In this document: in pieces, positions 1-25,070 of the stretch | How the letters are laid out: every line of letters starts with the position of its first letter | Numbering within the stretch: position 1 is the first letter of the stretch | IMG/VR virus record: IMGVR_UViG_3300036045_000058 | Location: 1 to 25,768 of that record | Length of the DNA stretch: 25,768 bases | Reading direction: 5' to 3' (one strand) | From: a virus | Made by a program: the position numbers and the translations under genes | The notes under the pieces: model-generated | What the model was told of the DNA's origin: nothing | What the model saw: the letters and a program-made list of their open reading frames with translations, nothing else | Database searches by the model: none

Positions 1-1
1 T

Positions 2-2971: not shown

Positions 2972-2972
2972 T

Positions 2973-9810: not shown

Positions 9811-9832
9811 GAACACGCAGGCATGTGGCTAC

Positions 9833-9848
9833 TGTGTGGCGCCACACA
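9833..9848. promoter_or_regulatory. Perfect 16-bp palindrome, candidate operator
   Basis: TGTGTGGCGCCACACA is an exact inverted repeat with no spacer. A symmetrical site of this size upstream of promoter-like elements is a plausible binding site for a dimeric regulator. No regulator gene is visible in the window. Confidence 0.4.
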
Positions 9849-9896
9849 TCCTACGGCGGGAGGATAACCGGGGGACAGGGTTTTCAGCGCTGGCCC

Positions 9897-9912
9897 TTAT
9901 ACGCGCGCGCGA
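9897..9912. repeat. Left arm of 16-nt inverted repeat
   Basis: TTATACGCGCGCGCGA is the exact reverse complement of the sequence at 10051-10066, with 138 bases between the arms. Read on the minus strand it gives TATAA next to an alternating CG tract, matching the plus-strand arm that contains the TATAAT element. Confidence 0.85.
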
Positions 9913-10040
9913 CCCCACTCCATATATCCCCTCGGTATAGAGACGGAAGTTCAGAGGTAGCGGTAGCGTGGACGTTAACCTGCGAAAAAGTTCTCTCTAC
10001 GTTCCCGGCGCGAGTCAGCTATTCCTATACTGCCGGAGTA

Positions 10041-10067
10041 TTAAGAGCACTCGCGCGCGCGTATAAT
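10041..10067 (+). promoter_or_regulatory. Candidate promoter for the replication genes
   Basis: A perfect TATAAT lies at 10062-10067, with a poor TTAAGA (10041-10046) at a 15-base spacing as the only -35 candidate. Transcription would start near 10074, about 18 bases before the helicase ATG. A second candidate, TATACT, lies at 10026-10031. Confidence 0.5.
10051..10066. repeat. Right arm of 16-nt inverted repeat
   Basis: TCGCGCGCGCGTATAA is the exact reverse complement of 9897-9912. This arm includes the first five bases of the TATAAT element at 10062-10067, so a protein binding here would block or position RNA polymerase. Confidence 0.85.
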
Positions 10068-10091
10068 AGCGCCCCGGTTACTGGAGCAGTC

Positions 10092-11852
10092 ATGAGGGTC
10101 GTCCAATTTGATGAGCACCTTGGACTAGACATTCCAAGCGGCCATTTCTACCACGAAGTTGCGAAGCATATGCCCAAGCGCAGGTGGTTCCCAACCCGCC
10201 GCCTTTGGCAGTTTCCAGCCCAGCGGCCAGTCATGGAATATGTCCGCAGGAATATGCCTCACTTGGCATGGGACGAATATGCCGAGAAAGCTTGGCAGCG
10301 TGCCAATGAGAAGGAGGAAGATCGCCGCAAGGTCTCAAATGGCGAGGTTGATCTGAACGTTGACCTGTCAAGTGTCCCGTTCAAGTATCCCCCATTTGAG
10401 CACCAGCGCAAGGCACTCATCCTTGGACGTGACAGGGAAGTCTTTGCCTACCTGATGGATCAGGGCACTGGCAAGACCAAGGTGATCCTTGACGATGCCT
10501 CGCACAATTTCAGGAACGGCACGATAGATGCCCTAGTCATAATTGCGCCGAACAGCGTCAAGACGAATTGGTGCAATGGATATGACGGCGACAATGATGC
10601 AGAGTTTGATGAAGTCAGGAAGCATATGCCACCTGACATCCGTTATTCGCGAGGCGCGTTCTTTGCCAACCCAAGCGCACTCCAGAAGGACTACTGGCTG
10701 AGGTTCCACAAGACTATGGCAGACAGGAGCAGGCTGTTCATCCTGTCCATAAGCGTGGAAGGGCTTCACTCTCCAAAGTCTATTGCCATCTTGCAGGAAG
10801 TGATGAGGCGCCGCAAGGTGATGCTTGTGGTGGATGAGTCCACCAGGATCGGAAACCGGGCCGCCAAGCGGACAAAGGTGGCAACTGACATCAGGAGGAA
10901 GGCTGTGCTTGCTCGAATTGCGAGTGGCACACCAGTGATCAAGTCACCGCTGAAGGCGTTCAGCCAATTCGGCTTCCTTGATCCAGACATCCTCGGCATT
11001 GCCACATTCACCGAGTTTTCTGCCCGGTATGCCGTGACGGTCCAGACAAATGATCGCGTCAGAATACCTGTCCGCTACCAGAATTTGAAGGAGTTGGGCG
11101 ACAAGATTGCCGGCGTCTCTTTCCGCGTTCTCAAGGAGCAATGCCTGGACCTGCCTCCAAAGACGTATGTGAAGCGCAATATCTATCTGACCAAAGCAAT
11201 GGAAGTTGCCTACCGTGAGATGCAGAGGCAATCCATCATATATTTGGACAGCCTCCATCGTGTCGAGGCCACGACCATTCTGACGCAGATGTTGCGGCTC
11301 CAGCAAATTACCGCAGGCTATCTTCCGATCATTGACCCGTTGACGAACGAGCAGACTGGCATCCACAAGATTGAAGATGGCTTCCCGCCAAAGATTGAGG
11401 AAGCAATTGACATGATCGAGGAAGTGGATGGGAAGGTAATTGTCTGGTGCAAGTTCAAGTTTGAGATACGTGAGATGCACGAGGCGCTGAAGAAAGCTGG
11501 AATTGAGCACGTCCTGTTCTATGGCGATACGCCAGAGGATGAGCGCATCAAAAACAGGATGGCGTTCCAGAACGATCCAAATATCCGGGTGTTCGTTGGG
11601 CAAGTGCGCACTGGTGGGATTGGCCTAACGCTCACCGCAGCCAACACCGTCATCTATCTGTCAAACACCTTCTCGACAGAAGATCGTGTTCAGTCTGAAG
11701 ATAGGGCACACCGCATCGGGCAGAATTGGCCAGTCACATACTTTGATCTGGTCTCTCCCCGCACAATTGACGAGAAGATCATCGTCACCCTTCGCACCAA
11801 CAAGCGTTTATCTGACGAAGTCATGAGAGACGGGTATAAAGCCTGGATTTAA
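10092..11852 (+). CDS. SNF2-family (SF2) DNA helicase/translocase
   Basis: The 586-residue protein is an SNF2-type ATPase that would move along or remodel DNA during replication or recombination. Visible motifs in order are GTGKT (Walker A, 125-129), DEST (Walker B, 248-251), SGTP (motif III region), a VRTGGIGLTLTAANTVIYL segment (motif V) and QSEDRAHRIGQ (motif VI, 534-544). The first 90 residues form a small separate domain (RRWFPTRRLWQFP), as in other phage SNF2 proteins. The ATG at 10092 was chosen because GGAG at 10083-10086 precedes it and because the longer reading from GTG 9825 adds non-homologous sequence through the promoter region. It is the first gene of the replication module and stands apart from the next by a 73-base gap containing a hairpin. 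Confidence 0.9.
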   Translation: MRVVQFDEHLGLDIPSGHFYHEVAKHMPKRRWFPTRRLWQFPAQRPVMEYVRRNMPHLAWDEYAEKAWQRANEKEEDRRKVSNGEVDLNVDLSSVPFKYPPFEHQRKALILGRDREVFAYLMDQGTGKTKVILDDASHNFRNGTIDALVIIAPNSVKTNWCNGYDGDNDAEFDEVRKHMPPDIRYSRGAFFANPSALQKDYWLRFHKTMADRSRLFILSISVEGLHSPKSIAILQEVMRRRKVMLVVDESTRIGNRAAKRTKVATDIRRKAVLARIASGTPVIKSPLKAFSQFGFLDPDILGIATFTEFSARYAVTVQTNDRVRIPVRYQNLKELGDKIAGVSFRVLKEQCLDLPPKTYVKRNIYLTKAMEVAYREMQRQSIIYLDSLHRVEATTILTQMLRLQQITAGYLPIIDPLTNEQTGIHKIEDGFPPKIEEAIDMIEEVDGKVIVWCKFKFEIREMHEALKKAGIEHVLFYGDTPEDERIKNRMAFQNDPNIRVFVGQVRTGGIGLTLTAANTVIYLSNTFSTEDRVQSEDRAHRIGQNWPVTYFDLVSPRTIDEKIIVTLRTNKRLSDEVMRDGYKAWI

Positions 11853-11925: not shown

Positions 11926-12345
11926 GTGTCAAACGACAAACATCCAGCTGTAACTGCTCTCGTCAAAGAATTGCGCGCCTTAAAAGACCGCAAGGATGAA
12001 CTTGAGCAACAGCTGAGTGAAGTCAACAAGAGGGCACGGCAGATACAAGAGCGTGAACTTCCAAAGCTTATGGAGAACGCTGAGCTGGAGAAGTTCACAG
12101 TGACCGGGGCTGGCACCTGTTATGTCAAGCAGGAGCTTTATGTCTCGATGACCAATGATGAAGAGGCGGCGGAACCGCCATTCTACGATTGGGCGCGCGA
12201 ACATGCGCCAAATTTGATCGTCCCATACATCCATCCTGCTCGCCTAAAGTCCTGGGCGAAGGAGCGTCTGGAAGGTGGCTTGCCAATTCCAGGCAACACT
12301 CTCAAGGCAACTTTCGTCCCCACCGCAACCCTTCTCAGGAGATAG
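11926..12345 (+). CDS. Small coiled-coil protein, conserved-looking phage protein of unknown function
   Basis: The 139-residue protein starts with GTG, with GAGG at 11917-11920. Residues about 5-50 are strongly charged and heptad-like (ALVKELRALKDRKDELEQQL), indicating a coiled coil. Residues 50-139 form a small domain with FTVTGAGTCYVKQELYVSM, then IHPARLKSWAKERLE. The shape, a helix pair followed by a small domain with a KFTV/GTCYV strand pair, recalls a family I associate with phage replication genes, but I cannot name it. It lies just before the probable ssDNA-binding protein and may act with it. No enzyme motif is visible. Confidence 0.65.
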   Translation: MSNDKHPAVTALVKELRALKDRKDELEQQLSEVNKRARQIQERELPKLMENAELEKFTVTGAGTCYVKQELYVSMTNDEEAAEPPFYDWAREHAPNLIVPYIHPARLKSWAKERLEGGLPIPGNTLKATFVPTATLLRR

Positions 12346-12350
12346 GCCAG

Positions 12351-13232
12351 ATGGCCAAGTCAGCACCTGCCCCAAAAGCAGAAGAGCCTGTGCCCGCAGT
12401 GGTGGCTCCAAGCCCACTGGCAATGCCGGATTGGGCCAAGGAATATTCTGGCCCGGTAGGCACGGAGAACATTGACTCCGGTGACGTGAACATCCCGCGC
12501 CTCAAGTTGGCGCAGTCGATGACGCCCGAGGTCAAGGACAGGATTGTCCAGGATGGTGACCTGTTCCATTCGATCACCAAGGAAGTGATCATCGCCGTTG
12601 GCTCTTCTGGTCTGGTCGTTCCTGTCGTTTACCAGAAGGAGTTCATTCTCTGGCGTGACAGGTCTGATGGCGGCGGCATCTTCGCGCGCGCTCACAGGGA
12701 AGTCCAGAACGATGGCACTGTCCGGTATGCCTGGGACAAGCCCAACAGCGTCTTCACCACCAAGATCAAGGGCGCCGTCAAGGTGGAGTGGAAGACCAAG
12801 CACTACATCGATGAGGATGGGCTTTCTGAATTTGGCACCATGGTCCCTGGTGATCGTGAGTCGCCTCCTGCAGCAACTGCCCACTTCAACTATGTGATGT
12901 ATCTGCCGGATCGCGGCGACATGGTGGCCGTATCCTTCGCGCGATCCGCCGCCAAGAGGGCGAAGGATTTGAACGCGATGTTGAAGATGGGCGGCGCTCC
13001 AATCTTCATGCGCCAATTCGCCCTCAGCACGATACCTGACCAGAACGAAGCTGGCGACAAGTTCTTCAACTACTCTATTGTGCCGGCTGGGTTCATCCAG
13101 GATCGTGACTTGTTCCTTCGCCTCCAGAAGATGCACATGGAAATGCGCGACCGCAGCGTGACCGTGGACTACTCTGACGAGGCGGATGCCAGCCAGAGTT
13201 CTGCTGCTGAGGCCGAGAGGCAAGCATTCTGA
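12351..13232 (+). CDS. Probable single-stranded DNA-binding protein
   Basis: The 293-residue protein starts at ATG 12351, five bases after the previous stop, with AGGAG at 12337-12341. A longer in-frame reading from 12189 would overlap the upstream gene and lacks support. The N-terminus is Ala/Pro-rich and disordered (about 1-30), the middle (about 40-265) is mixed strands and helices with many aromatic and basic residues (VKVEWKTKHY), and the C-terminus is an acidic, Ser-rich tail ending in Phe (YSDEADASQSS then AEAERQAF). A disordered acidic tail ending in Phe is a hallmark of phage and bacterial ssDNA-binding proteins, which use it to recruit partners. The neighbouring primase and helicases fit. 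No OB-fold was proven by eye, so the name is an inference. Confidence 0.5.
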   Translation: MAKSAPAPKAEEPVPAVVAPSPLAMPDWAKEYSGPVGTENIDSGDVNIPRLKLAQSMTPEVKDRIVQDGDLFHSITKEVIIAVGSSGLVVPVVYQKEFILWRDRSDGGGIFARAHREVQNDGTVRYAWDKPNSVFTTKIKGAVKVEWKTKHYIDEDGLSEFGTMVPGDRESPPAATAHFNYVMYLPDRGDMVAVSFARSAAKRAKDLNAMLKMGGAPIFMRQFALSTIPDQNEAGDKFFNYSIVPAGFIQDRDLFLRLQKMHMEMRDRSVTVDYSDEADASQSSAAEAERQAF

Positions 13233-13235
13233 TCC

Positions 13236-14732
13236 ATGCGAAGGTTCGCCCAGTTATTCTCTGGGCGAACCGACTGCTTCGGTCGCTACATAGTCACAGA
13301 ACAACGCAATGATGGAAAGCAGAAGGGACGAGGCGTTACCGTTCGTGAGCCATTAACTGACGATCATTACGCCTCTCACCTTGCTGGTCGCGTTCGTATT
13401 GGTGTTGTTCCAATTAGACTAGATAGCACTGTCAGTTGGTTCGCTGGAGATATTGACGCTTACAACATCAACCCGATTGATGTTGAGAAGCTCTGCCAGA
13501 AACATCAGATACCCGTTGTAGTCTGCCGCTCAAAGAGCGGTGGGGTGCACATACATTGCTTTATTCGCGGGAGCATCAAGGCTACTCTCGCCATTACGCT
13601 TATGCGCACTTGGCTTGCGAAGCTTGGCTATCCAAAGTCAGAAGTCTTTCCAAAGCAGGAAACTGTCACTGAGGAAAGCTATGGCAATTGGATCAACCTT
13701 CCATACCACAATGCGCAGCAAACCGATAGCTACGCAATTGGTGTGAGTGGAGAGAAGCTGTCACTTGAGGAATTTGAACAGCTAGCAGATGCTAGAAGCC
13801 CAACTCCCGATGAGCTTGAAGGGATGCTTGGGAAGCAGAAGGAGAAGGAGCGATCACCGCTTCATGGCGCTCCACCTTGTGTGGAGAAGATGTTTGAGGA
13901 AGGCGTTGGCGAAGGTGGCAGGAACAACGCCCTAACTCACGTTGGCATATACCTACTGAAGTCAGACCCCGACAACTGGCGTGATCGTCTATACGAGGCA
14001 AACAACAGCCTGTTTGGTGAGCCGCTGCCAACTGAAGAAGTCAGAACGATTGGCAGGAACGTATCAAAGGCCAAATACGAATACTTGTGCAAGGTTGAGC
14101 CGATGTGCTCGCTTTGCAACAAGGAAGTCTGCCTGACCCGAAAATGGGGCGTTGGCCCTGGTCGCGGCATAGAATATGACGACTTTGAGGTTGATCGCGT
14201 CATCAAGATCACATCTGACCCGCCAATCTATCTGGTCATCTACAATGGCCAGGAAGTCAAGATGGACACGCAACAATTCCTAAGCCCCGGTTTGTTCAGG
14301 CGCCGCATCTATGAGGTGACCGGGCAACTTATCGCGCCGATGAAAGAGCGGCAGCACGAAGCGCGCATCATGGCGACTAGGATTGAGATTGAGGCTGCGC
14401 CAGAGGAAGTTGATCAGCCTGGGCAGATACTTGAGGCGTTCCGCGAGTGGTGCGAGGTTCACATTCCAAACTCGCGCAACTTGGCAGAAGTGCTTCGCGG
14501 CAATCCCTTCTTTGACCAGGAGAAGCGCAACGTCATCTTCCGGGCAGCCGATCTGACTTCTGCTCTTAGCAGGCAGAAGAAGATTGATGCCCCTGATCGT
14601 GATGTCTGGTCGGCTCTGAGGAAGCTCGGGTGCTTCCGTGAGAACGTCAGAATTGATGGGAAGCAGACAAAGGTCTGGATGTTTCCAGTCGAGAAGCCAT
14701 GGTTTGATATGCCAGCACAGGAGGCGTTCTGA
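13236..14732 (+). CDS. AEP-type DNA primase (PrimPol family) with PriCT domain
   Basis: The 498-residue protein carries the archaeo-eukaryotic primase signature. It has a metal-binding DxD at D72/D74 in FAGDIDAY, the SGGVHIH nucleotide-binding motif at 101-107, and NWINLPYH at 151-158, a pattern I associate with primases of this class. It is followed by a PriCT-1-like helical domain (about 212-285, EGGRNNALTHVGIYLL) and four cysteines (C285, C291, C294, C299) that could bind zinc. The last third (about 400-490) resembles a winged-helix DNA-binding domain. It would make primers for the DnaE-type polymerase encoded downstream. It starts four bases after the upstream stop. No DnaG or DnaB-type gene was seen, so this is the probable primase of the phage. 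Confidence 0.88.
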   Translation: MRRFAQLFSGRTDCFGRYIVTEQRNDGKQKGRGVTVREPLTDDHYASHLAGRVRIGVVPIRLDSTVSWFAGDIDAYNINPIDVEKLCQKHQIPVVVCRSKSGGVHIHCFIRGSIKATLAITLMRTWLAKLGYPKSEVFPKQETVTEESYGNWINLPYHNAQQTDSYAIGVSGEKLSLEEFEQLADARSPTPDELEGMLGKQKEKERSPLHGAPPCVEKMFEEGVGEGGRNNALTHVGIYLLKSDPDNWRDRLYEANNSLFGEPLPTEEVRTIGRNVSKAKYEYLCKVEPMCSLCNKEVCLTRKWGVGPGRGIEYDDFEVDRVIKITSDPPIYLVIYNGQEVKMDTQQFLSPGLFRRRIYEVTGQLIAPMKERQHEARIMATRIEIEAAPEEVDQPGQILEAFREWCEVHIPNSRNLAEVLRGNPFFDQEKRNVIFRAADLTSALSRQKKIDAPDRDVWSALRKLGCFRENVRIDGKQTKVWMFPVEKPWFDMPAQEAF

Positions 14733-15007
14733 TGGGCCGGAATATGCGCAAGACTGGCGATTATCGCATCTTAGATGATGCGAGCACAATCCCGAGGGCC
14801 GGGACTGGTGGGCTCCTGAGCGTTATCCACAATGCTACTGGCATCACGTTGTTTTCTGCGTTCAACGATAGCCTCATGGATTTGCTGTTGGAGGCATACT
14901 ACACTGGATATGAAAAGGGCAAGAAGGATGGAAGGAAGAAAGCGCGATTTGACATCTGCTATGCCATTGGGGCAAAGCCAGTAGATGACAAGGAAGATGA
15001 CGAGTGA
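14732..15007 (+). CDS. Small protein of unknown function
   Basis: The 91-residue product was not recognised. Its ATG overlaps the primase TGA by one base (TGATG), indicating coupled translation, and its own TGA overlaps the GTG of the helicase gene. A central segment (SVIHNATGITLFSAFNDSLMDLLLEAYYTGYEKGKKDG) is helical with a basic stretch, and the C-terminus is acidic. A helper role for the primase or helicase is possible from position only. An alternative start exists at ATG 14744. Confidence 0.6.
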   Translation: MGRNMRKTGDYRILDDASTIPRAGTGGLLSVIHNATGITLFSAFNDSLMDLLLEAYYTGYEKGKKDGRKKARFDICYAIGAKPVDDKEDDE

Positions 15008-16557
15008 ACGTCACCAAGATATTTGGCCCACCAGGGACTGGCAAGACCACAAGGTTGCTGGCCATCCTTGAGGATGAGTTGGCGAGCGGCACTGATCCTC
15101 GCCGGATCGCCTATGTGACGTTCTCAGTTGCCGCGCGTCTTGAGGCAAAGACACGCGTGATGAAGAAGTTTCCACTTATTCCTGCCGAGGCACTGCACTA
15201 CTTCAAGACCATCCACGGCATCTGTTATGCCGAGATAGGCATGCATAAGAACAATGTTATGCAGCTTGAGGACTACCTCAAGTTTGCCAAGGCATGTCCA
15301 ATTGAGTTTTCTGACTCGTTCACTGACAATTTCGACATAGACGGCATGCCGTTTGGTTGGGTAACAAGCCCCGGTAATCAGATCATGAACATTCGCCAAG
15401 TTGCTGCGGCGAGAAGGCTCGATCCATTCTCTGATGAAGTCATCCGCAAGGATTGGCCGAGAGACATCAAGCGGAAGGAAGTTGCTCACGTTCTTGACCT
15501 GTATGCCAAATACAAGTCAGATGAGAGCAAATTTGACTTTGTGGACATGCTTCTGATGTATGAGAAAAGTGGCGATCCTCTCGCCATTGATGTCATCATC
15601 GTGGACGAAGCGCAAGACTTGTCCAGGCTTCAGTGGGCGCTCGTTCGCAAGATGGCGGCAAATGCCAAGCGAATGTATCTGGCTGGTGATGACGACCAAT
15701 CCATCTACGGCTTCCTTGGCGCCGATCCGTATGGGTTCTTCCACCATCCGTGCGACAAGAAGATCAACCTCACCAAGACGTATCGGCTGCGCAGCAACGT
15801 TTGGGAATACGCCAAGAAGATAATTGAACGGGTAAAGATGCGCGAGCCGAAGCAAGTCATCCCGATTGACAATGGAGGCGATGTCAACTTCTGGGGCTTG
15901 CCTGCTGATGCTGTTCTCGACAGAGTTGACCTTGATGACGTCATGGTTATCGCACCAACAAACTATGATTTGGCGTCAATCAAGTCCAGGCTCGACAAAG
16001 CTGGCATCCCGGTGAATTACCGGGGCGGGTGCGTGACGCAGACACAAGAGGCATCCAGGTTTTATTGGTATCATCGCATGAGGAAGGGTAGTGAAATTCC
16101 AATGCGCGATGCTGCCTCCATTCTCCGCGTGCTCGGAATAGAGGCGCACAAAGCTGTTGCTGAGCGCGCCAGAACCCAGGTCAATGCAACCGTCTCTCCA
16201 AACGAAATGGTGGAGTTTGGCGCCAAGATAGTGCGCAATCGAGGCATGTGTGAATATCTTGCCTCAAAGCCAGTCCACGTCAAGGCGAACCAGACACTTT
16301 ACCAGATTGCCTCCAAATTCGGGCTGGAGGCTACTATAGCGAAGCCGAAGGTAACACTGTCCACATATCACGCGAGCAAAGGGCGGGAAGCCAAGCAGAC
16401 GATCCTTGTGACAGATTGCTCTCCGTCAGCAATGGACTATGCTGTGCGCGATCCAGACTATGAGCGCAGGCTTGCCTATGTTGGTGTGACCAGAACGAAG
16501 CAGGCGCTCAACGTTTGCAGTCCACTGTCTGAAACCTACATGAAAGCATTTCGCTAG
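15004..16557 (+). CDS. UvrD/Rep-like SF1 DNA helicase
   Basis: The 517-residue helicase has the full set of SF1A motifs: GPPGTGKT (8-15), DEAQD (201-205), DDDQSIYGF (229-237), TYRLRSNV (motif IV region), TYHASKGRE (about 454-462) and YVGVTRTK (492-499). It is shorter than full UvrD, so accessory 1B/2B insertions are reduced, as in many phage versions. The GTG start overlaps the preceding TGA. It would unwind DNA during replication or repair. It ends in TAG, inside which the next gene's ribosome site begins. Identification as an SF1 helicase is very secure; which step it serves is not. Confidence 0.93.
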   Translation: MNVTKIFGPPGTGKTTRLLAILEDELASGTDPRRIAYVTFSVAARLEAKTRVMKKFPLIPAEALHYFKTIHGICYAEIGMHKNNVMQLEDYLKFAKACPIEFSDSFTDNFDIDGMPFGWVTSPGNQIMNIRQVAAARRLDPFSDEVIRKDWPRDIKRKEVAHVLDLYAKYKSDESKFDFVDMLLMYEKSGDPLAIDVIIVDEAQDLSRLQWALVRKMAANAKRMYLAGDDDQSIYGFLGADPYGFFHHPCDKKINLTKTYRLRSNVWEYAKKIIERVKMREPKQVIPIDNGGDVNFWGLPADAVLDRVDLDDVMVIAPTNYDLASIKSRLDKAGIPVNYRGGCVTQTQEASRFYWYHRMRKGSEIPMRDAASILRVLGIEAHKAVAERARTQVNATVSPNEMVEFGAKIVRNRGMCEYLASKPVHVKANQTLYQIASKFGLEATIAKPKVTLSTYHASKGREAKQTILVTDCSPSAMDYAVRDPDYERRLAYVGVTRTKQALNVCSPLSETYMKAFR

Positions 16558-16566
16558 GAGGCAATT

Positions 16567-17514
16567 GTGTTCATCATCGGAGCCGGCATGGCCGGTCTTG
16601 TCGCATCCCACATCTTCCGCAATCGGAAGCCGGCAATACTTGAGGCGCAGAGTAGTCTGCCCAACAACCACGAGGCGCTGCTCCGGTTCAGGAGCACGGC
16701 GGTTGCTGAGGCAACCGGCATCCAGTTCAAGAAAGCTCTGGTGAGAAAGGCAATCGTCTATCAGGGCACATTCATTGACAAGCCGAACATGTTCCTGTCC
16801 AACACATACTCGCTAAAAGTCACTGGGCAGATCAGCGACCGCTCAATCTGGAACATCAATGAAGCAGAGCGATGGATCGCGCCATTCGACTTCGTTCAGC
16901 AGATGTCAAATGGTGTGACAATATCATACTCCAATTTAATCACCAACCTTTCTGCCCTGAAGGATTTCACCGGGGATGCCCCGGTTATCTCAACCGTTCC
17001 AATGCCAATCCTGATGAAGATTGTTGGGTGGCAACATGCGATCAAGTTTCACGCTCTGCCGATTTGGAGCGTTCAGGTTGACCTGCAGCATCCGGCCACA
17101 AACGTTTATCAGACCATCTATTATCCAGACCCGGAAGTGCCTTACTATCGCGCGTCCATAACTGGAAGCCGCTTCATCGTTGAGTATGCCGCCTCTCCAA
17201 ATGACATTGAGCGTGATGTGGAGACGATACTTGGCGATTTCGGCATCATCGGATGGAGCACGACTGCGATCATGTCTCCAAAGGAGCACCGCTATGGGAA
17301 GATCGTTGCTGTAGATGATACAGCCAGAAAGGACTTCATCTACACAATGACCAGAGAGCACAACATCTACAGTCTTGGGCGCTTCGCTATCTGGAAGAAT
17401 ATCCTGCTTGATGAGGTTGTTGGAGACTGCCGAGTCATCCAACGTCTTATTGAGATGGAGGGGCGCCGTAGCAACTATCACCAAACTCTTGCGACAATTG
17501 GAGGTATGCACTGA
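16567..17514 (+). CDS. FAD-dependent oxidoreductase of unknown substrate
   Basis: The 315-residue protein opens directly with a Rossmann dinucleotide-binding motif, GAGMAG (5-10), and Glu26 at the end of the second strand (AILEA) for the FAD ribose. A LLRFRS segment and a late GRFAIWKN segment resemble FAD-binding parts of amine-oxidase/UDP-galactopyranose-mutase-like flavoproteins. The GTG start is supported by AGGAGG at 16556-16561, one of the best ribosome sites in the window. I recall similar flavoproteins in other phage genomes but cannot give a function. It lies between a helicase and DUF3850/ThyX genes, suggesting nucleotide metabolism or DNA modification. It appears intact. Confidence 0.75.
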   Translation: MFIIGAGMAGLVASHIFRNRKPAILEAQSSLPNNHEALLRFRSTAVAEATGIQFKKALVRKAIVYQGTFIDKPNMFLSNTYSLKVTGQISDRSIWNINEAERWIAPFDFVQQMSNGVTISYSNLITNLSALKDFTGDAPVISTVPMPILMKIVGWQHAIKFHALPIWSVQVDLQHPATNVYQTIYYPDPEVPYYRASITGSRFIVEYAASPNDIERDVETILGDFGIIGWSTTAIMSPKEHRYGKIVAVDDTARKDFIYTMTREHNIYSLGRFAIWKNILLDEVVGDCRVIQRLIEMEGRRSNYHQTLATIGGMH

Positions 17515-17840
17515 TGTTCGAAGCACCTGAGCCAAATGTTCCACAAGTCGTTCAGGAGCACAAAAGGCATGATCTAAAGTGCCTTGGCGTGTTATTTGAC
17601 TCAATCGCGAGTGGCGCAAAGACTTTTGAGATACGCAAGGATGACCGGGGCTTTCGGTTGGGGGACTTCATCATCCTTCACAGGGTGAGCGAGACCAGTC
17701 CAAACGAGGTCAAGTTTGGTGGGAAAACCCTTTGGCTCAAGATCACTTACACTCTCAGGGGCGAAGCCTGGGGCTTGATGAAGGGATATGTGGCGATAGG
17801 CTTCAAGATACTTGAAAAGACGGCTGAGGCACGGCCCTAG
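17514..17840 (+). CDS. DUF3850 protein with ASCH/PUA-like fold
   Basis: The 108-residue protein shows the DUF3850 pattern: HDLKCLGVLFDSIASGAKTFE (residues about 19-39), IRKDDRGFRLGD, then an ITYTLRG strand and a GYVAIGF end. Members of this ASCH-like group are thought to bind RNA or nucleotides. The ATG overlaps the upstream TGA by one base (TGATG) and GGAGGT at 17500-17505 gives a strong ribosome site. It has about a 17-residue N-terminal extension before the domain. It is followed by a 134-base non-coding gap, so it may end a transcription unit with the flavoprotein. Confidence 0.8.
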   Translation: MFEAPEPNVPQVVQEHKRHDLKCLGVLFDSIASGAKTFEIRKDDRGFRLGDFIILHRVSETSPNEVKFGGKTLWLKITYTLRGEAWGLMKGYVAIGFKILEKTAEARP

Positions 17841-17974
17841 ATCGGAAGCGCCCTACTCTCCCCGGCTTAGGCGCGTGGCTCATAGGCTTATTTGAATTCG
17901 TTGAAGCCTCCAGCCTACGCGGAAGCCTTTCAGTATCGGGCGCGTTATACTTAGCGGACGGACAGGAGTTGAAG
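17841..17974. other. Intergenic region before thyX
   Basis: No gene was found. The region contains an imperfectly supported hairpin, AGGCTT (17884-17889) pairing with AAGCCT (17904-17909) across a 14-base loop, a TATACT element at 17946-17951 and a ribosome site (AGGAG, 17964-17968). It probably separates the flavoprotein/DUF3850 pair from the unit beginning with thyX. Confidence 0.5.
17946..17951 (+). promoter_or_regulatory. Candidate -10 element upstream of thyX
   Basis: TATACT lies 23 bases before the thyX ATG, in a GC-rich setting. No good -35 hexamer is present at the usual distance, so an activator or an alternative recognition mode may be needed. Confidence 0.35.
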
Positions 17975-18805
17975 ATGGAAGTTACCCTCATCAGCCATAC
18001 GCAAGATGCGATGGAGCTTCTCATCTACACCAAGCAGACGCGCATGAGCATGTCGCCTGGTGCCTTCGCCGCGATCAAGGGCTGGGAGCAGCCGCGCAAG
18101 GAAGCTGAGATCAACTATATGCTCCACACCATCCAGTCCAGCTGGGAGTTTGTGGAATACGTTTTTGTGATCGAGGGCGCTCCCCGGTCCTTCACGCACC
18201 AGCTGGTGCGGACACGTCATGCTTCTTATGCGCAACAGAGCCAGCGGCTCGCGCAGGGAGAAGATATTGACACGCACATGCCCGACAAGATTGCTGAGGA
18301 TGGGTTGCTTCGCCGCACTTTCGATGAGGCCATGGAAGCTGCCCAGGAAGCATATGACCAGTTGCTCCGAGACGGCGCTGACGCTCAAGATGCCCGCGAG
18401 GTTTTGCCGAATGCTTCCTGTTCAAACATCGTGATGAAGGTGAGCCTTCGCGCGCTCCACGATTTTCTTCTCAAGCGCCTTTGCGTCAGAGCACAAGGCA
18501 TGGCGCAGCAAGTGGCGCGCGAAATGCGCAAAGCCGTCATAGCAGTCCACCCATGGTCTGAACCTTTCCTTCGGGTGTGGTGCGCAACGCACGGAACATG
18601 CCAATTCCACAACCACCCGATGGAGTTGTGCCCGGTCAAGCCGTTTGTGTATAACCCGCATACCGGGATGGCTTATGACAGGAAGGCTGCCCTTCCCGCG
18701 ACCATTGAACACATCCAAGACCTTTGGGAGAAGATGGGTGTCCAACACGTCCAGCCGAAAGCCCACAGCACTAGTGGAAACGATGCCAAGGATGGTGCTG
18801 GTTAA
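17975..18805 (+). CDS. thyX: FAD-dependent thymidylate synthase ThyX
   Basis: The 276-residue protein would convert dUMP to dTMP using methylene-tetrahydrofolate and reduced FAD. The family signature appears as RTRHASYAQQSQR (79-91), a variant of the usual RHRxxSxNxxSxR. Supporting motifs are REVLP (141-145) and RALHDFLLKR (159-168), equivalent to the conserved nucleotide-binding arginine helix. ATG 17975 was chosen over the TTG at 17969 because AGGAG at 17964-17968 is correctly spaced. The protein is longer than most ThyX (about 220-250), with a tail that contains C203, H206, C209, H212, H214 and C219 as a possible metal site. It overlaps the next small gene by 23 bases. Confidence 0.88.
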   Translation: MEVTLISHTQDAMELLIYTKQTRMSMSPGAFAAIKGWEQPRKEAEINYMLHTIQSSWEFVEYVFVIEGAPRSFTHQLVRTRHASYAQQSQRLAQGEDIDTHMPDKIAEDGLLRRTFDEAMEAAQEAYDQLLRDGADAQDAREVLPNASCSNIVMKVSLRALHDFLLKRLCVRAQGMAQQVAREMRKAVIAVHPWSEPFLRVWCATHGTCQFHNHPMELCPVKPFVYNPHTGMAYDRKAALPATIEHIQDLWEKMGVQHVQPKAHSTSGNDAKDGAG

Positions 18806-18962
18806 ACTGCCAAGCGGCATGTTCAACCTCATCATCCAGCACATTGAGCACAGTGTGGAGAACCCGGAAGGGTTTGTCTGGGCAACTCGTCAGATATCAA
18901 CCTTGACTGCTCAAGAGGCAGAGAAGCTCAGGAAGGGAAACCACGATGCTCGCCATGGATGA
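18783..18962 (+). CDS. Small protein overlapping thyX, unknown
   Basis: The 59-residue frame starts at ATG 18783 (or ATG 18792) within the last codons of thyX and ends 17 bases inside the nucleotidyltransferase gene. The sequence (MVLVKLPSGMFNLIIQHIEH, then QISTLTAQEAEKLRKG) looks like a small folded protein. A GTGGA just upstream may serve as a ribosome site. The gene fills the only gap between thyX and the next gene, which is the main support for it. No family was recognised. Confidence 0.5.
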   Translation: MPRMVLVKLPSGMFNLIIQHIEHSVENPEGFVWATRQISTLTAQEAEKLRKGNHDARHG

Positions 18963-19671
18963 TCTTCGGCGCGTCATAATGATGATGCCGAAAGATTTGC
19001 GCGAAGTGATGACCAAGAACAAGATTTATCTTGCTGGCGGCAGCATCCGAGACATTGTTGCCGGCAATGAGATCAGTGACTGGGACATCTTTGGCGAGAA
19101 CAAGGATTTCCTCAAGATGGTGTGCAACAGCTTTGTTGGCACACGCAAGCCTGATGCGCGGCTCTACACCACCAAGAATGCCTTCACCGTTCTGTCTCCA
19201 AGGGGCAAGCCCATTCAAGCCATCCATCGCTGGTTGTATAGCGATCCGGTGGCAGTCATGAACGACTTTGACTTCAGCATGTGCGCCGTGGTGGTTTGGC
19301 ACGAAGGTGGTGGGTGGCACTCCAAGGCTCACCCATACTTCTATGCTGACTTGGCCGCGAAGCGGCTCCGGTATATTGCGCCGCAGCGCGATGAAGATGC
19401 TGGTGGCAGCATGCTGCGGATGGTCAAGTTCATTCGTCGCGGCTATTCGATCAGCCCCGAGAACATGGCCAAGATCATGGCCAGACTTACGAAACAGATG
19501 CGCGACACAAACGTGCTTGATCAGCATGATGGTCATGAGCGCGTGCTCACCAGCCTTTTGCGTGAGGTTGATCCGCTCACAGTTATTGAAGGGCTTGAGC
19601 TGCGCGATCCATTCGCTGACCCACTTCTTTCCACCAATGACCTTGACGCAGGAGTTGAAAATGGACTATGA
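18946..19671 (+). CDS. Nucleotidyltransferase related to poly(A) polymerase / CCA-adding enzyme head domain
   Basis: The 241-residue protein carries the pol-beta superfamily signature of class II poly(A)/CCA enzymes: AGGSIRD (30-36) then DWDIF with catalytic Asp45 and Asp47, and a likely third carboxylate at D107/D109 in MNDFDF. A further helical region (SMLRMVKFIRRGYSIS) matches the segment following the head domain. It lacks the long C-terminal RNA-binding part of full CCA enzymes (usually about 400 residues), so the substrate is uncertain: RNA, a nucleotide or a protein. The ATG at 18946 is supported by GGAAGGG at 18931-18937, better spaced than the ATG at 18955. It lies between thyX and MazG-like genes. 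Confidence 0.75.
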   Translation: MLAMDDLRRVIMMMPKDLREVMTKNKIYLAGGSIRDIVAGNEISDWDIFGENKDFLKMVCNSFVGTRKPDARLYTTKNAFTVLSPRGKPIQAIHRWLYSDPVAVMNDFDFSMCAVVVWHEGGGWHSKAHPYFYADLAAKRLRYIAPQRDEDAGGSMLRMVKFIRRGYSISPENMAKIMARLTKQMRDTNVLDQHDGHERVLTSLLREVDPLTVIEGLELRDPFADPLLSTNDLDAGVENGL

Positions 19672-20344
19672 TCAAGCTGTGGCTATCGCGCATGATGCGG
19701 ATAGCCTTCCATTCGCGCTTCTCTGCGAGAAGTATATCCAGTTTGTCGGCATCACCGAGAACACACCAAACTGGATGTCACAGCTTCTTGTGACCGGGGG
19801 AGATCACGGTCACGGCAACGTCAAGATTGACGGGAAGCCAATGTCCTTCCAGCGCGCGCTCCATGCCAGCATGGGCCTGGTCACTGAGTGCTCCGAGCTT
19901 GTGACTATTTCCCTTCCAGCCTTCACCAATCCGCTTGCCAAGACGAGCAGGAGCCACATTATTGAGGAAATTGGCGACATCTTCTATTACACCGCACTTA
20001 TGAAGAGCGCACTTGACCAGATGGACTATAAGGTTGGCCTGGATGTGATGCTCCAAGCTGGCCAATCTTTGGCCGGGCCTAGTGCGCCCGACATCCTGAA
20101 GCTTTCGATTGATGCCCTCAATCGCTCCATATCCATCCTTGATTTGTTCAAGAAGGACTTGTATGGCAAGAACAAGATTTTGACGGCATCACAAATCTCC
20201 AGCCGTCTTGCTGAATGCCTATTCAGCATAAAGTTGATCATCCTTGCTCTATTCAATGAGCACCCGACTGTGACGCCGAGGTCAATCATGGCTGAAAACA
20301 TCAAGAAGTTGGCCAACCGCTACATCGAAAAGTTTGGGAGATAG
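19661..20344 (+). CDS. MazG-like all-alpha NTP pyrophosphohydrolase
   Basis: The 227-residue helical protein contains the metal-binding pattern of the all-alpha NTP-PPase superfamily: E76xxE79 in TECSELV followed by E103xxD106 in EEIGDIFYY. Members hydrolyse NTPs or dNTPs to monophosphates plus pyrophosphate, for example to remove damaged nucleotides or dUTP. The start is ATG 19661, with AGGAG at 19650-19654, overlapping the previous gene by 11 bases. The C-terminal half (about 125-227) is an extra helical domain not needed for the signature. The substrate cannot be deduced; proximity to thyX suggests the nucleotide pool. Confidence 0.75.
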   Translation: MDYDQAVAIAHDADSLPFALLCEKYIQFVGITENTPNWMSQLLVTGGDHGHGNVKIDGKPMSFQRALHASMGLVTECSELVTISLPAFTNPLAKTSRSHIIEEIGDIFYYTALMKSALDQMDYKVGLDVMLQAGQSLAGPSAPDILKLSIDALNRSISILDLFKKDLYGKNKILTASQISSRLAECLFSIKLIILALFNEHPTVTPRSIMAENIKKLANRYIEKFGR

Positions 20345-20347
20345 ACC

Positions 20348-20710
20348 GTGGACAAGAACGCTGGTGATCTGCTCAGAGAGGCTGCTGATCTATTCAAGCA
20401 GCGCAACGAGCAATATGGCCCGAGCTACTTCACCCATGGCCCGGTTCTCAGTGCGCTGTTTCCTTATGGCATGAGGTTGCAGACGCCAGAGGATTTCAAC
20501 CGCTTCGCCATTCTCAATTTGGTTGTGACGAAGCTGGTCCGCTACTGCAACAATTTTCACTTTGGCGGGCACCAAGACAGCATCGCTGATCTTGCGGTCT
20601 ATGCCAAGATGCTGGAGGAAGTTGATGCTCGCATTAGTGACGGGAGCCTCCCATGGTCTGGGCGCTTCTATCGCGGAAAAATTGATGAAGAAGGGGATGG
20701 TGGTCCGTGA
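20348..20710 (+). CDS. DUF6378-like protein, probable all-alpha NTP-pyrophosphohydrolase relative
   Basis: The 120-residue protein has the pattern of small phage proteins of the DUF6378 type: LLREAADLFKQRNEQYGPSY, a middle LNLVVTKLVRY helix, and the HQDSIADLAVYAKMLEE helix that holds the family's His/Asp residues. The GTG start has GGAG at 20338-20341. The domain ends near residue 92 and the remaining 28 residues form a basic/acidic tail that is read out of frame by the following gene (86-base overlap). Function is inferred from family resemblance and from the MazG-like neighbour. Confidence 0.65.
   Translation: MDKNAGDLLREAADLFKQRNEQYGPSYFTHGPVLSALFPYGMRLQTPEDFNRFAILNLVVTKLVRYCNNFHFGGHQDSIADLAVYAKMLEEVDARISDGSLPWSGRFYRGKIDEEGDGGP
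20614..20618 (+). promoter_or_regulatory. Ribosome binding site that sets the dehydrogenase start inside the upstream gene
   Basis: GGAGG lies six bases before ATG 20625. It is the best ribosome site near the dehydrogenase and fixes a start that lies 86 bases before the upstream gene's stop. Confidence 0.75.
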
Positions 20711-21293
20711 CATCCCAGGAGACACTATAGCAAGCGGCCCAAGGCATATTGAAGGTGCAATAAGGCGCCTATCTAGGTGCCCAAACATTATCGTCAATAA
20801 CTATGGCATAAACCATCTTTCATGGATAGGAGAGACGCCAGCAATTGATGAGGCAATCATCAAAGCAAATCTTCTTGGTCCATATTGGGTGATCAACTAT
20901 GTCAAGCAGCACTGGGGTGGTCCTTGCCGCGTGGTCAACATCGCCTCCCAGGTTTACCGGGTGCCGCAACGCTGCACAAGTCTCTATTGCGCGTCAAAGG
21001 CTGGCTTGGTCCACATGACGAAGGTCATGGCTCGCGAGCTTGCGCCAAGTGGGTGGATTGTGAACGCAGTCAGCCCTGGCAAGATCGAAGACACGATGAT
21101 GTCCAGGATGACTGATGCGCAGGTGTTGAAGCTTCGCGGCTGGGACCCAGACAAAGCCGACAACTACGCCAAGTCTCTCATTCCGGCGGGGCGCTATACT
21201 ACTCGCGCGGAGGTCGCGGACGTGGTCATGAGTGTCCTTGAGATGCCCGACTATGTCAACGGCACCGTCATTGAAGCGCACGGAGGGGTATGA
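20625..21293 (+). CDS. Short-chain dehydrogenase/reductase (SDR)
   Basis: The 222-residue protein has all classical SDR landmarks: TGASHGLG (6-13, NAD(P) binding), NNYG (58-61), Asn82, catalytic Ser108, Tyr121 and Lys125 in the YCASK motif, and NAVSPG (147-152). It ends with a GG segment typical of 3-oxoacyl-reductase-like enzymes. The start at ATG 20625 leaves no extra N-terminal sequence before the Rossmann strand, which supports it. The NAD(P)-binding motif lies inside the region shared with the preceding gene. Substrate is unknown; candidates are a fatty-acid, sugar or pterin-type carbonyl. SDR genes are not part of the standard phage replication set. Confidence 0.88.
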   Translation: MLALVTGASHGLGASIAEKLMKKGMVVRDIPGDTIASGPRHIEGAIRRLSRCPNIIVNNYGINHLSWIGETPAIDEAIIKANLLGPYWVINYVKQHWGGPCRVVNIASQVYRVPQRCTSLYCASKAGLVHMTKVMARELAPSGWIVNAVSPGKIEDTMMSRMTDAQVLKLRGWDPDKADNYAKSLIPAGRYTTRAEVADVVMSVLEMPDYVNGTVIEAHGGV

Positions 21294-21580
21294 TGTCAAT
21301 TAGCGAGGCGGCAGCAGAGCTTGCCGACCAGATTGCGATGGACAAGAACCATACGGCAATTGTCCTTGTTCGAGACGGGAAAGATGGGAGCGGCACCAGC
21401 GTGTTCCTGTCAAATTCTGGCGAGGAAATGCTGGCTACTCTTGCCAGCGCACTCGATGAGCACCCCGTTCTGATCAGCCTGTTCGTGGGCGCTCTCAGCA
21501 TGGTCCGCAAGTTTGGCAACAGCAAAGACGATGAGGGCTTCGCCCCGGTCATCTTTGCCGGGGACAAGAGGCTCAACTGA
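21293..21580 (+). CDS. Small protein of unknown function
   Basis: The 95-residue product was not recognised. Two ATGs are possible: 21290 and 21293. GGAGG at 21282-21286 is six bases from the second, so 21293 is preferred; this gives a one-base overlap with the dehydrogenase stop. The sequence begins with a helix (SISEAAAELADQIAMDKN), followed by a strand pair (AIVLVRDG, GTSVFLSN) and helices. It looks like a small alpha/beta protein. It lies immediately upstream of the proofreading exonuclease (TGATG overlap). Confidence 0.6.
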   Translation: MSISEAAAELADQIAMDKNHTAIVLVRDGKDGSGTSVFLSNSGEEMLATLASALDEHPVLISLFVGALSMVRKFGNSKDDEGFAPVIFAGDKRLN

Positions 21581-22152
21581 TGATCGTCGTTGACCTTGAG
21601 ACAACTGGACTGCTCAAGCCAGATACGCGTGACCCGGAGCAGCAACCGGGCATCGTTCAGATTGCTTTGGCCAAGGTCCAGTATGTTGGACCGGATACTG
21701 GCTACAGGGCAACTGACTGGAAAACTTGGCTGGTCAACCCAGAGAAGCCCGTCTGGGACCCGGATGCCATCAAGACACACGGCATCAATCCCGGCGATGT
21801 CAAGGACGCTCCAACCCTCGCTGCGCTCCATCCAGAGTTGTGCGATTGGTTTGCTGGTCAGCACACGTGGATCGGCTTCAACAACGAATTTGACCGCAAG
21901 GTGCTGTTCTACTCTCTTGCCCGGTTATCCATGGAAGCACGCTTCCCTTGGCCGTGGATTGACATGGATGTGATGAAGATCGCTAAGCCAGTTGTCAACA
22001 TTCCCGGCAAGAGAGACATCAAGTTCCCGTCACTCATTGAGTGCCACAAGGAATTGGTTGGCGAGGATTACAAGAATGCCCATGATGCTGGCGCCGACAT
22101 CATGGCAACGTTGAACTGTCTGAACGCTCTCGCGTCCTTGGGGTATGTATGA
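21580..22152 (+). CDS. DnaQ-like 3'-5' exonuclease (DEDDh), probable proofreading subunit
   Basis: The 190-residue protein contains the DEDDh exonuclease motifs: VDLETTG with D5 and E7, GFNNEFD with D105, and AHDAGAD with H168 and D173. These residues bind two metals and remove mispaired 3' nucleotides. The ATG overlaps the previous TGA (TGATG) and its TGA overlaps the start of the polymerase gene by four bases (ATGA), so exonuclease and polymerase are probably made in fixed proportion. This pairing resembles the epsilon/alpha partnership of bacterial DNA polymerase III. The name rests on motifs and context. Confidence 0.9.
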   Translation: MIVVDLETTGLLKPDTRDPEQQPGIVQIALAKVQYVGPDTGYRATDWKTWLVNPEKPVWDPDAIKTHGINPGDVKDAPTLAALHPELCDWFAGQHTWIGFNNEFDRKVLFYSLARLSMEARFPWPWIDMDVMKIAKPVVNIPGKRDIKFPSLIECHKELVGEDYKNAHDAGADIMATLNCLNALASLGYV

Positions 22153-25070
22153 TCCATCTAGACATCCGCACTGGGTTCAGCTTCCTCAAGGCATACGGCA
22201 ACCCCGAGCAGATCATTGACCGGGTGAAGCAGATCGGCTCGACCACCTTTGGCATTGCTGACTTGTGCTCAACGTGGGGCCACATCCCATTCTACAAAGC
22301 TGCCAAGAAAGCTGGAACGAAGATCGTCCTTGGCACTCAGTTCAACGTTGTGCGCGCCCTGGACAAAGACACGCGATATGATCAGGTGACGGTCCTGGCA
22401 AAAAACTCCGCCGGTCTCAAGGATCAGTATGATCTGATGTCTCTTGCGACGCAACCTGACCAATTCTACTACCGCCCACGCATCACTTGGAAGCAGCTTG
22501 ATGACGTTGCATCCAGCAATTTCATCATAGCAAACCAGTTGACGCCAGATACGCTCAAGGATTTCGAGGCTATTGGCACAGGCTACATCGGGGCTGCGCC
22601 TCTCCCCGGCTTTATGTTGTCCCGCGCGCGGTCAAGCAGCCTAGGCGTGGCGCTATCGTGTTCCCCGGTCTATCCCACCGCAGGGGAGCGGGAGACGTAT
22701 CAGCTGGTGAATTCAATCGGCTCTGCGCGCAAGACATATGAGATTGAAGCGCCAGATCAGTGGATATTCTCCAGGGCTGAGCTTGCTGCCAAATTCTCGC
22801 AGCTAAGAATTGACGAAGGCGTGCTGTCTGCGTGGATTGCCGAGACAGAGAGAATAGCAGCAGAATGTGATGCGCACATACCTCAAGCGCAGAACGTGAA
22901 GCCGGACATCAACATCACTCTTGAGCAATGGTGTGAGGAAGGCGCCAAAGAGCGCGGCATTGATCTGACGAAGGAGCCATACAAGTCTCGCCTGTCATAT
23001 GAACTTGGATTGATCCACGAGAAGGGATTTGTGGATTACTTTCTGCTCATTGCCGATCTAATCGCTTGGGCGAAGGAGCGGATGTTTGTCGGGCCAGCAC
23101 GCGGAAGCTCCGCTGGCAGTCTGGTGTGCTTCCTCATGGGCATCGTTGAGGTTGATCCTATCCAGCACAACCTGATGTTCGAGAGGTTCATTGACGTAAC
23201 GCGCACAGACTTGCCTGACGTTGATATTGATTTCCCAGACACTGAACGGGATGATTGCTACAACTACCTGGCAGAAAAGTATGGATCGGATCGCATCGCG
23301 CGGCTTGGAACCATTTCTGTGTTCAAAGCCAAGTCTGCCATTGGCGATGTGGCAAAAAGCTATGCTGTCCCCAGGTGGGAAGTAGAGGATTTGTCCACAG
23401 TCTTGATTGAGCGGAGCGGCGGTGACGCGCGCGCCAACATGACTATTATGGACACAATTGAGCAGTTTGAGAAAGCAAAAACGCTCATCGCCAAATACCC
23501 CAAGCTTCGTATGGCCGAGAAGCTTGAGGGGCACCCTCGGCATAGTGGCAAGCACGCGGCAGGAGTTTGCATCAGCAACGATGCGATCAGAAAATACTGC
23601 GCAATTGACCACTACAAGGGCGGCGTTGGTATGCTCACCAAATACGACGCTGAAGCCATCGGCCTGATGAAGATTGATGCCCTCGGTCTCAAGACACTCT
23701 CTGTCATCGAGGATTGCGCCAATATGGCTGGGTTTGACCCGCGCATGCTGTATAGACTTCCTCTGAATGATGAAGAGGTGTTCAAGCCATTCCAACAAGA
23801 CAAGGTTGCCGGCATATTCCAATTTGAAGGGTATGCTGTGCGCAGCTTGATGCGTCAGATGGGGGTGGAGAAATTCGATGATATTGTGGCTCTTACTTCT
23901 CTGGCTCGCCCTGGCCCTCTTCATTGTGGCGGGGCTAATGAGTTTATCGCCAGAAGAACCGGTGCGAAAGATTGGCAATATCTTCATCCTTCTATGTCTG
24001 CTCACACTGGTCATACTTTTGGCACCATTGTTTATCAAGAGCAGGTGATGTCAATCACCCGCGATCTTGGCGGCATGGATTGGATGGATGTCAACGCACT
24101 CCGCCGAGCCATGTCCAAGTCGCTTGGTGAAGAGTTTTTCAACCGTTACCGGGACAAATTCTTGGTTGGAACCCGCGCCAGAAAAATCGAAGATGGAGTG
24201 GCACTGGAAATATGGAACGAAATGTGCACATTCGGCTCTTGGGCATTCAACCTGAGCCACGCTGTCTCCTATGCCATCATCAGCTATTGGTGCGCTTGGC
24301 TCAAGGTGAAGCACCCACTAGAGTTTGCGGTGGCCCACCTGCGACGCGCAGCTTCGGACGATCACGTGTTCAGATTACTGCGGGAGTTGGACAAGGAAGG
24401 TTATCGCATCATACCATTCGATCCACACCTGTCAGAAGTCAACTGGTCGGCCAAAGATGGAGCGATTGTGGGTGGCTTCAATTCCGTCAAAGGAATAGGC
24501 GACAAGACCGCTGCCGCCCTGGTGGCCACACGCGCTGAAAAGATCAAAGGCTTGGCAGAAATCAACCTGCCGCCAGAAAAATGGGTGGACACACTCAGCA
24601 CAGCCCAACGCGCCAAGATACTCGCGCCAAACAACACGCCATGGCACAACCTGAAGCGCCTCCAGACCAAGTTTGCCGGCATTTACAAAGACCCGGTCAA
24701 TTACAGGTCAGAGGATTTGCCTCATGGGATAACCGGGAAGGTCATCTTCATTGAGGACATTCCAGAGCGCAAGGGTGAATATTGCTTCATTGCCACTCTG
24801 AAGGAGCGCAATCTTCGCGATCTGAACGAGACGCAGAGCCTGGCAAAGCGAAATGGACGGGTTATCCACTTCCAAAACCTTTTCCTCAACCTTCAGTTTG
24901 AGGATGACACTGGTTCCATATTGGCGACGATCAACCGTTTCCGGTATGATAAGCTCGGCAAAATCTTGATGGAGGAAGCAAGCGATGGATTAGACTTCAT
25001 TGTGCGCGGTGAAATCCGCGAAGATGGACGCAGAAAGATTGACATCAGCAACTTGAAGAGGTTGAAGTGA
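22149..25070 (+). CDS. C-family DNA polymerase, DnaE / Pol III alpha-like
   Basis: The 973-residue protein is shorter than bacterial DnaE (about 1160). It begins with a PHP-like region (1-90) in which the metal-binding motifs are eroded: HLDIRTGFS replaces the usual HLHxHSxxS and ADLCSTWG the usual TDHG, so the PHP domain is probably inactive. Polymerase motifs are intact: VGPARGSSAGS (314-324), PDVDIDF with D357 and D359, and KIDALGL with D510, equivalent to the three catalytic aspartates. A helix-hairpin-helix region lies at about 775-795 (GGFNSVKGIGDKT) and an OB-fold-like region near 860-960. The tau-binding C-terminus of DnaE appears absent. It is translationally coupled to the exonuclease. 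Confidence 0.95.
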   Translation: MIHLDIRTGFSFLKAYGNPEQIIDRVKQIGSTTFGIADLCSTWGHIPFYKAAKKAGTKIVLGTQFNVVRALDKDTRYDQVTVLAKNSAGLKDQYDLMSLATQPDQFYYRPRITWKQLDDVASSNFIIANQLTPDTLKDFEAIGTGYIGAAPLPGFMLSRARSSSLGVALSCSPVYPTAGERETYQLVNSIGSARKTYEIEAPDQWIFSRAELAAKFSQLRIDEGVLSAWIAETERIAAECDAHIPQAQNVKPDINITLEQWCEEGAKERGIDLTKEPYKSRLSYELGLIHEKGFVDYFLLIADLIAWAKERMFVGPARGSSAGSLVCFLMGIVEVDPIQHNLMFERFIDVTRTDLPDVDIDFPDTERDDCYNYLAEKYGSDRIARLGTISVFKAKSAIGDVAKSYAVPRWEVEDLSTVLIERSGGDARANMTIMDTIEQFEKAKTLIAKYPKLRMAEKLEGHPRHSGKHAAGVCISNDAIRKYCAIDHYKGGVGMLTKYDAEAIGLMKIDALGLKTLSVIEDCANMAGFDPRMLYRLPLNDEEVFKPFQQDKVAGIFQFEGYAVRSLMRQMGVEKFDDIVALTSLARPGPLHCGGANEFIARRTGAKDWQYLHPSMSAHTGHTFGTIVYQEQVMSITRDLGGMDWMDVNALRRAMSKSLGEEFFNRYRDKFLVGTRARKIEDGVALEIWNEMCTFGSWAFNLSHAVSYAIISYWCAWLKVKHPLEFAVAHLRRAASDDHVFRLLRELDKEGYRIIPFDPHLSEVNWSAKDGAIVGGFNSVKGIGDKTAAALVATRAEKIKGLAEINLPPEKWVDTLSTAQRAKILAPNNTPWHNLKRLQTKFAGIYKDPVNYRSEDLPHGITGKVIFIEDIPERKGEYCFIATLKERNLRDLNETQSLAKRNGRVIHFQNLFLNLQFEDDTGSILATINRFRYDKLGKILMEEASDGLDFIVRGEIREDGRRKIDISNLKRLK

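Follow-up and report, generated by a model that had tools for sequence, protein, structure and literature searches.

AEP primases and C-family DNA polymerases in phage replication regions: a conserved, predicted priming and unwinding module with an exchangeable polymerase and a candidate SSB

The pairing of an AEP primase with a DnaE-like C-family DNA polymerase is common among phages, being both widespread and little studied, and the polymerase is the exchangeable part on a conserved priming and unwinding module. An apparent oddity is in this way replaced by a general rule, namely that one such module works with either PolA or DnaE. As judged from the predicted functions of the genes described here, they likely encode a largely self-contained phage replisome in which SSB-tip-like tails are used instead of a phage clamp.

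The DNA under study (hereafter the window; G000) is a 25,768-base stretch of an IMG/VR virus record from an uncultivated phage. It is a fragment, and the window and most of its relatives are either fragments or unverified assemblies. Its left part (1-7049) is a GTA-like tail cassette with DUF2460-like, DUF2163-like, NlpC/P60-like, and hub genes, the hub protein having matches to Phage-tail_3 and Rcc01698_C; in Dinoroseobacter phage R5C, the genes at the equivalent place are annotated as GTA-like. The cassette suggests an alphaproteobacterial host. From 9825 onward, the window consists of replication and nucleotide-metabolism genes, all on the plus strand, and two longer relatives, G001 and G044, are syntenic with it across the tail and replication genes.

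The replication region opens with an SNF2/HepA-like SF2 helicase (9825..11852, +; SNF2-rel_dom E 2e-11, Helicase_C E 2e-13), which carries the motifs GTGKT, DES, and HRIGQ and is 51% identical to its G001 and G044 counterparts. The mechanically called ORF is some 89 amino acids too long at its N-terminus (9825-10091), and relatives of 576-592 amino acids indicate that the true start is probably the ATG at 10092. Downstream lie a Pam3 gp33-like protein (DUF7307; 11926..12345, +; PF23984 E 1e-24), with a coiled coil and a small domain, and a Pam3 gp34-like protein (12351..13232, +; PF23977 E 4e-38), discussed below as a candidate phage SSB. These are followed by the AEP (PrimPol) primase with its PriCT-1 domain (13236..14732, +; AEP-TOTE E 1e-20, PriCT_1 E 1e-5; phrog_21866 primase E 1e-83), a small ORF in the interval between primase and UvrD (14732..15007, +) without a family match in Pfam or PHROGs, and a UvrD-like SF1 helicase (15004..16557, +; UvrD-helicase E 4e-27) with intact Walker A/B motifs. 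Repair, with 3'-5' polarity, is the usual role of UvrD helicases; therefore, this one is treated as a candidate replicative unwinder only.

The genes fall into two modules, AEP-UvrD on the one hand and DnaE-DnaQ-FAD on the other, a split that was overlooked in an earlier note made on this DNA. An NAD/FAD Rossmann-like protein (16567..17514, +; phrog_4828 E 2e-75) comes after UvrD. The stretch between the two modules (17514-21293) holds DUF3850, the FAD-dependent thymidylate synthase ThyX (17969..18805, +; Thy1 E 4e-38), a polyA-polymerase-like nucleotidyltransferase, and MazG-like, DUF6378, and short-chain dehydrogenase genes. The DnaQ-like DEDDh 3'-5' exonuclease, a candidate proofreader (21580..22152, +; RNase_T E 4e-11; phrog_192 DNA polymerase exonuclease subunit E 2e-35), and the DnaE-like C-family DNA polymerase (22149..25070, +; DNA_pol3_alpha E 4e-69, fingers E 3e-39, PHP E 5e-17) follow.

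The AEP, SNF2, UvrD, DnaQ, and DnaE genes that the earlier note had named are real, lie at or near the places it had assigned to them (SNF2 just upstream of 13236-25070), and have intact motifs. In the primase, the AEP-TOTE domain (PF22548) scores 74.6 bits against a Pfam cut-off of 27, and the catalytic motifs DxD (D72/D74), SGGxHxH (SGGVHIH), and FPKQ are mostly invariant among 10 homologues. The closest solved structures by sequence are 7nqf and 7nqd (E 2e-14), which we take to be CRISPR-associated prim-pols (CAPP). Searching IMG/VR with the single window AEP protein returned no matches; an alignment-based search did return them. Many of the AEP relatives in genome contigs come from alphaproteobacterial MAGs. 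DnaQ possesses DxE, NxxxD, and HxxxxD (DEDDh). DnaE is made up of PHP, the catalytic core, HhH (the HHH_6 match being under its own cut-off), and an OB-like end; its motifs PDVDIDF and KIDALGL are intact, the catalytic Asp is invariant, and matches to DnaE proteins in the PDB reach E values of about 1e-135 to 1e-139.

Although the reading of the region as a mixed replisome without certain standard genes stood, the claim that its combination of primase and polymerase is unusual was not supported. AEP-TOTE was found in 22/44 IMG/VR records with a window-like DnaE, and a Prim-Pol AEP in two more; among the 14 such records of at least 50 kb, the corresponding numbers are 11 and 2. Relatives of the RepB'-type primase of phage PB1 occur in 357 phage records, RepB' being an AEP family (PMC5862659), and phage-encoded AEPs have been reported to be nearly as frequent as DnaG-like primases (PMC5862659).

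The gene order SNF2-gp33-gp34-AEP-UvrD is present in 46 AEP loci, with partial versions in most of the others, and the step from AEP to UvrD is conserved. Where AEP and DnaE occur together, gp34-AEP-UvrD is found in 23 of the 24 loci, and the contig of the remaining one stops beside AEP. PolA is present in 46 of the 57 AEP records searched (taken from the AEP alignment), and six of the other 11 are DnaE records. The five-gene module is more often accompanied by PolA than by DnaE, from which it follows that the polymerase is exchangeable. DnaE, in turn, is accompanied by DnaQ and the phrog_4828 Rossmann-like protein. By parsimony, four switches between PolA and DnaE are placed on the AEP tree, but the AU test does not reject one DnaE clade (p 0.18). 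We therefore dropped repeated PolA/DnaE exchange as a firm claim; the exchange may have taken place once or several times, and in either direction.

Of the 359 phage records with a phrog_4828 match, most belong to Pbunavirus-type Pseudomonas phages; in our loci, the family was seen only in DnaE-bearing records and not in about 45 PolA/AEP loci. The protein is possibly a partner of the C-family module.

Profile searches of the window revealed no DnaB, DnaG, beta clamp, or clamp loader, bearing out what the earlier note had reported. Because the window is a fragment, the search was repeated in longer, near-complete relatives, namely G001 (54.0 kb), G044 (54.5 kb), G046 (55.5 kb, with an exact 117-bp terminal direct repeat), and G047 (58 kb), the first three of which each carry AEP and DnaE. 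This check beyond the window, which had been proposed for DnaB and the clamp, again gave no DnaB, DnaG, clamp, or loader in any of the four, and DnaB was above the cut-off in 0/44 IMG/VR records with a window-like DnaE. Clamps were searched for with phrog_947, chosen because the divergent clamp that phage Pan1 encodes had escaped PF02767, and loaders with PF13177; both were detected in the positive controls Pan1 and R5C, so the searches are able to find divergent phage versions. These two phages combine AEP-UvrD with PolA, a divergent clamp, and a loader (L006, 31745-32725 and 36115-37041; L007, 32440-33411). One might object that the window is without head genes and terminates inside the replication region, so that DnaB, DnaG, and clamp genes could sit in the missing part of the genome. 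The syntenic G001 and G044 and the terminally repeated G046 are also without them, which largely refutes this objection and leaves it very improbable.

The question of how the polymerase gains processivity, likewise posed in the earlier note, stands and has become sharper, as DnaE is without the canonical clamp-binding motif. Bacterial DnaE proteins, apart from some known exceptions, bind the clamp through the consensus motif QL[S/D]LF (PMC3919608). The suggested inspection of the polymerase for such a motif found neither QxxLF nor QL[SD]LF after HhH in 8/8 DnaE proteins (the window and seven homologues, PB1 included); DnaQ has neither motif. A tau-binding C-terminal domain was also lacking in the eight, the window protein stopping past the OB-like region at residue 973. 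A DnaE without QxxLF that ends soon past its OB-like part is, on these features, unlikely to use a clamp in the canonical manner. The missing motif is compatible with membership of the C family, because it is also missing from some bacterial DnaE proteins, and in some groups it is weak or unrecognised and yet their genomes are replicated (PMC3919608). Clamp use by way of an adaptor or a divergent motif is possible.

The alternative that DnaE borrows the beta clamp of the host, either by a degenerate motif or with the help of an adaptor (e.g., the gp33-like protein), while the host loader supplies the clamp, deserves serious weight, even if we hold it to be the lesser chance. It would account for a phage that encodes neither clamp nor loader, it has a precedent in the bacterial groups just mentioned, and loose matches to the motif exist, among them QNLF at residue 909 in the window protein. 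Against it, the position of these loose matches is not conserved, and the recognised motifs are absent from all eight polymerases as well as from DnaQ.

The candidate SSB had been overlooked too. The gp34-like protein has no assigned function in Pfam or PHROGs, the Pam3 literature gives none for gp33 or gp34, and the PB1 homologue (gp53), which matches 504 phage records, is annotated as hypothetical among the matches listed. In the AF2 model of the window protein, a beta-rich core precedes a disordered tail (269-293, pLDDT<50), which is acidic and ends in ...EAERQAF; AF2 models were built for the window and for viral-contig loci. Of 90 homologues, 85 terminate in an aromatic residue (73 F, 7 Y, and 5 W), which usually follows acidic ones, as in DDDIPF and DEDVPF; members of the largest AEP+DnaE clade often have a terminal M instead (DDDVM). 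Among ORFs of at least 150 amino acids from the same loci, the background for a terminal F is about 12% (12.5%), and the UvrD, gp33, and SNF2 homologues have termini of other kinds, unlike gp34-like and AEP. Tails of the DDDIPF/DEDVPF type match the tip of bacterial SSB. Acidic tails have been described as a hallmark of SSBs from bacteria and phages (PMC5686142).

The structural comparison points in two directions. Using Foldseek against the PDB, SSBs took ranks 1, 3, and 5 for the gp34-like model, with weak E values (0.02-0.06), low TM-scores, and probabilities of 0.30-0.47 (0.30 for the SSB with the best E value, 0.02), whereas the top probability (0.85) went to a phiC31 integrase-RDF fusion. 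With SSB hits this weak, an OB fold in the gp34-like protein is no more than tentative. The fusion would suit another replication or recombination protein that bears an SSB tip, be it an annealing protein, a loader, or a protein akin to the directionality factors of phages; and the tail alone does not prove an SSB, because the primase has such a tail too. We regard this as unlikely, though not to be dismissed, given that the module yielded no second candidate for an SSB and that SSBs typically combine the features seen here, namely a conserved position, a beta-rich core, and an acidic tail that is long and disordered. That gp34-like is the phage SSB is, in our view, quite probable, and under this reading, a family of unknown function with >500 phage records would gain a probable one. 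The gp33-like protein, encoded directly upstream in most loci, might be a partner of the SSB or the polymerase; its AF2 model (pLDDT 87.5) shows a long helix and a small domain and had no PDB fold match.

The window AEP ends in ...PAQEAF. A terminal F is found in 83/93 AEP homologues, often in an EEDIPF- or DEDVPF-like setting, and in at least 20 of the 24 AEPs of the AEP+DnaE set. In the replisome that we favor, the AEP would lay the primers, which by analogy with the CAPP prim-pols (PMC8211822) would probably be ribo-initiated DNA primers; UvrD, aided by SNF2, would open the duplex in DnaB's stead; and the gp34-like protein, acting as the phage's SSB, would cover the single-stranded DNA. DnaE would elongate the AEP primers while DnaQ proofreads in trans, and the acidic, aromatic-tipped tails may tether SSB and primase to a common partner (polymerase or helicase), which would help to sustain continuous synthesis. 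A bolder form of this proposal, in which the C-family replisome is clamp-free and interchangeable SSB and AEP tails share one site on DnaE (or UvrD), bringing about primer handoff and T7-like processivity, is speculative, and we think it rather unlikely to be right in full. A few purified proteins would now suffice for a direct test of clamp-free synthesis by DnaE.

It should also be asked whether the AEP takes part in replication at all. The Pfam family of its domain is named for TOTE conflict systems and the solved structures nearest to it seem to come from CRISPR-associated prim-pols (PMC8211822), so the enzyme could serve in repair, restart, or TOTE-like conflict while host DnaG and DnaB prime and unwind the phage forks. 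The surroundings of the gene make this improbable: the AEP is the sole primase candidate found, it stands beside UvrD and the SSB candidate in dozens of phages with their own PolA or DnaE, and DnaE phages without AEP-TOTE can have another AEP. The context of a replication module speaks against the conflict reading in particular, for which the match of the AEP domain is the one TOTE feature seen.

Among known systems, the cultured Pbunavirus PB1 and its kin come close to the window, sharing DnaE, DnaQ, SNF2, ThyX, phrog_4828, the gp33/gp34-like pair, and a primase of the AEP superfamily; in PB1, as in the window, no clamp, loader, or DnaG was found. The PB1 primase, a RepB_primase protein (E 1e-60), adjoins DnaE/DnaQ, and the accompanying helicase is VapE-like. 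The two differ in that PB1 has this RepB' primase with an SF3 helicase where the window has AEP-TOTE with UvrD, and no RepB_primase or VapE match was obtained among the window replication proteins scanned.

The PolA phages (Acinetobacter phage Barton, Dinoroseobacter R5C, Pelagibacter HTVC023P, and DSL-LC04) share gp33-gp34-AEP and a UvrD-like helicase, often with SNF2 and mostly in the same order as the window; they differ in their family A polymerase, and R5C, like Pan1, also has a clamp and loader. Swaps between A and C DNA polymerases within otherwise similar replication regions are known in the Caudoviricetes (PMC11348598). In the swap described there, a DnaB-like helicase and a DnaG-like primase moved with the polymerase, whereas in the present phages it is the module of primase and helicase that is shared. 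The CAPP enzymes (7nqf, 7nqd; PMC8211822) have an AEP domain related by sequence; the window AEP differs from them in belonging to a phage replication module and in having PriCT-1 and an SSB-like tail.

Phage T7 offers a parallel for the tails, as its SSB (gp2.5) and primase (gp4) both have acidic tails whose last residue is aromatic. The tails of the T7 SSB and of the gp4 primase-helicase bind the polymerase. The C-terminal phenylalanine of the T7 SSB has been described (PMC9917605). The T7 proteins differ from those of the window in having no sequence relation to them, and in the window the polymerase belongs to the C family and the helicase is a separate protein.
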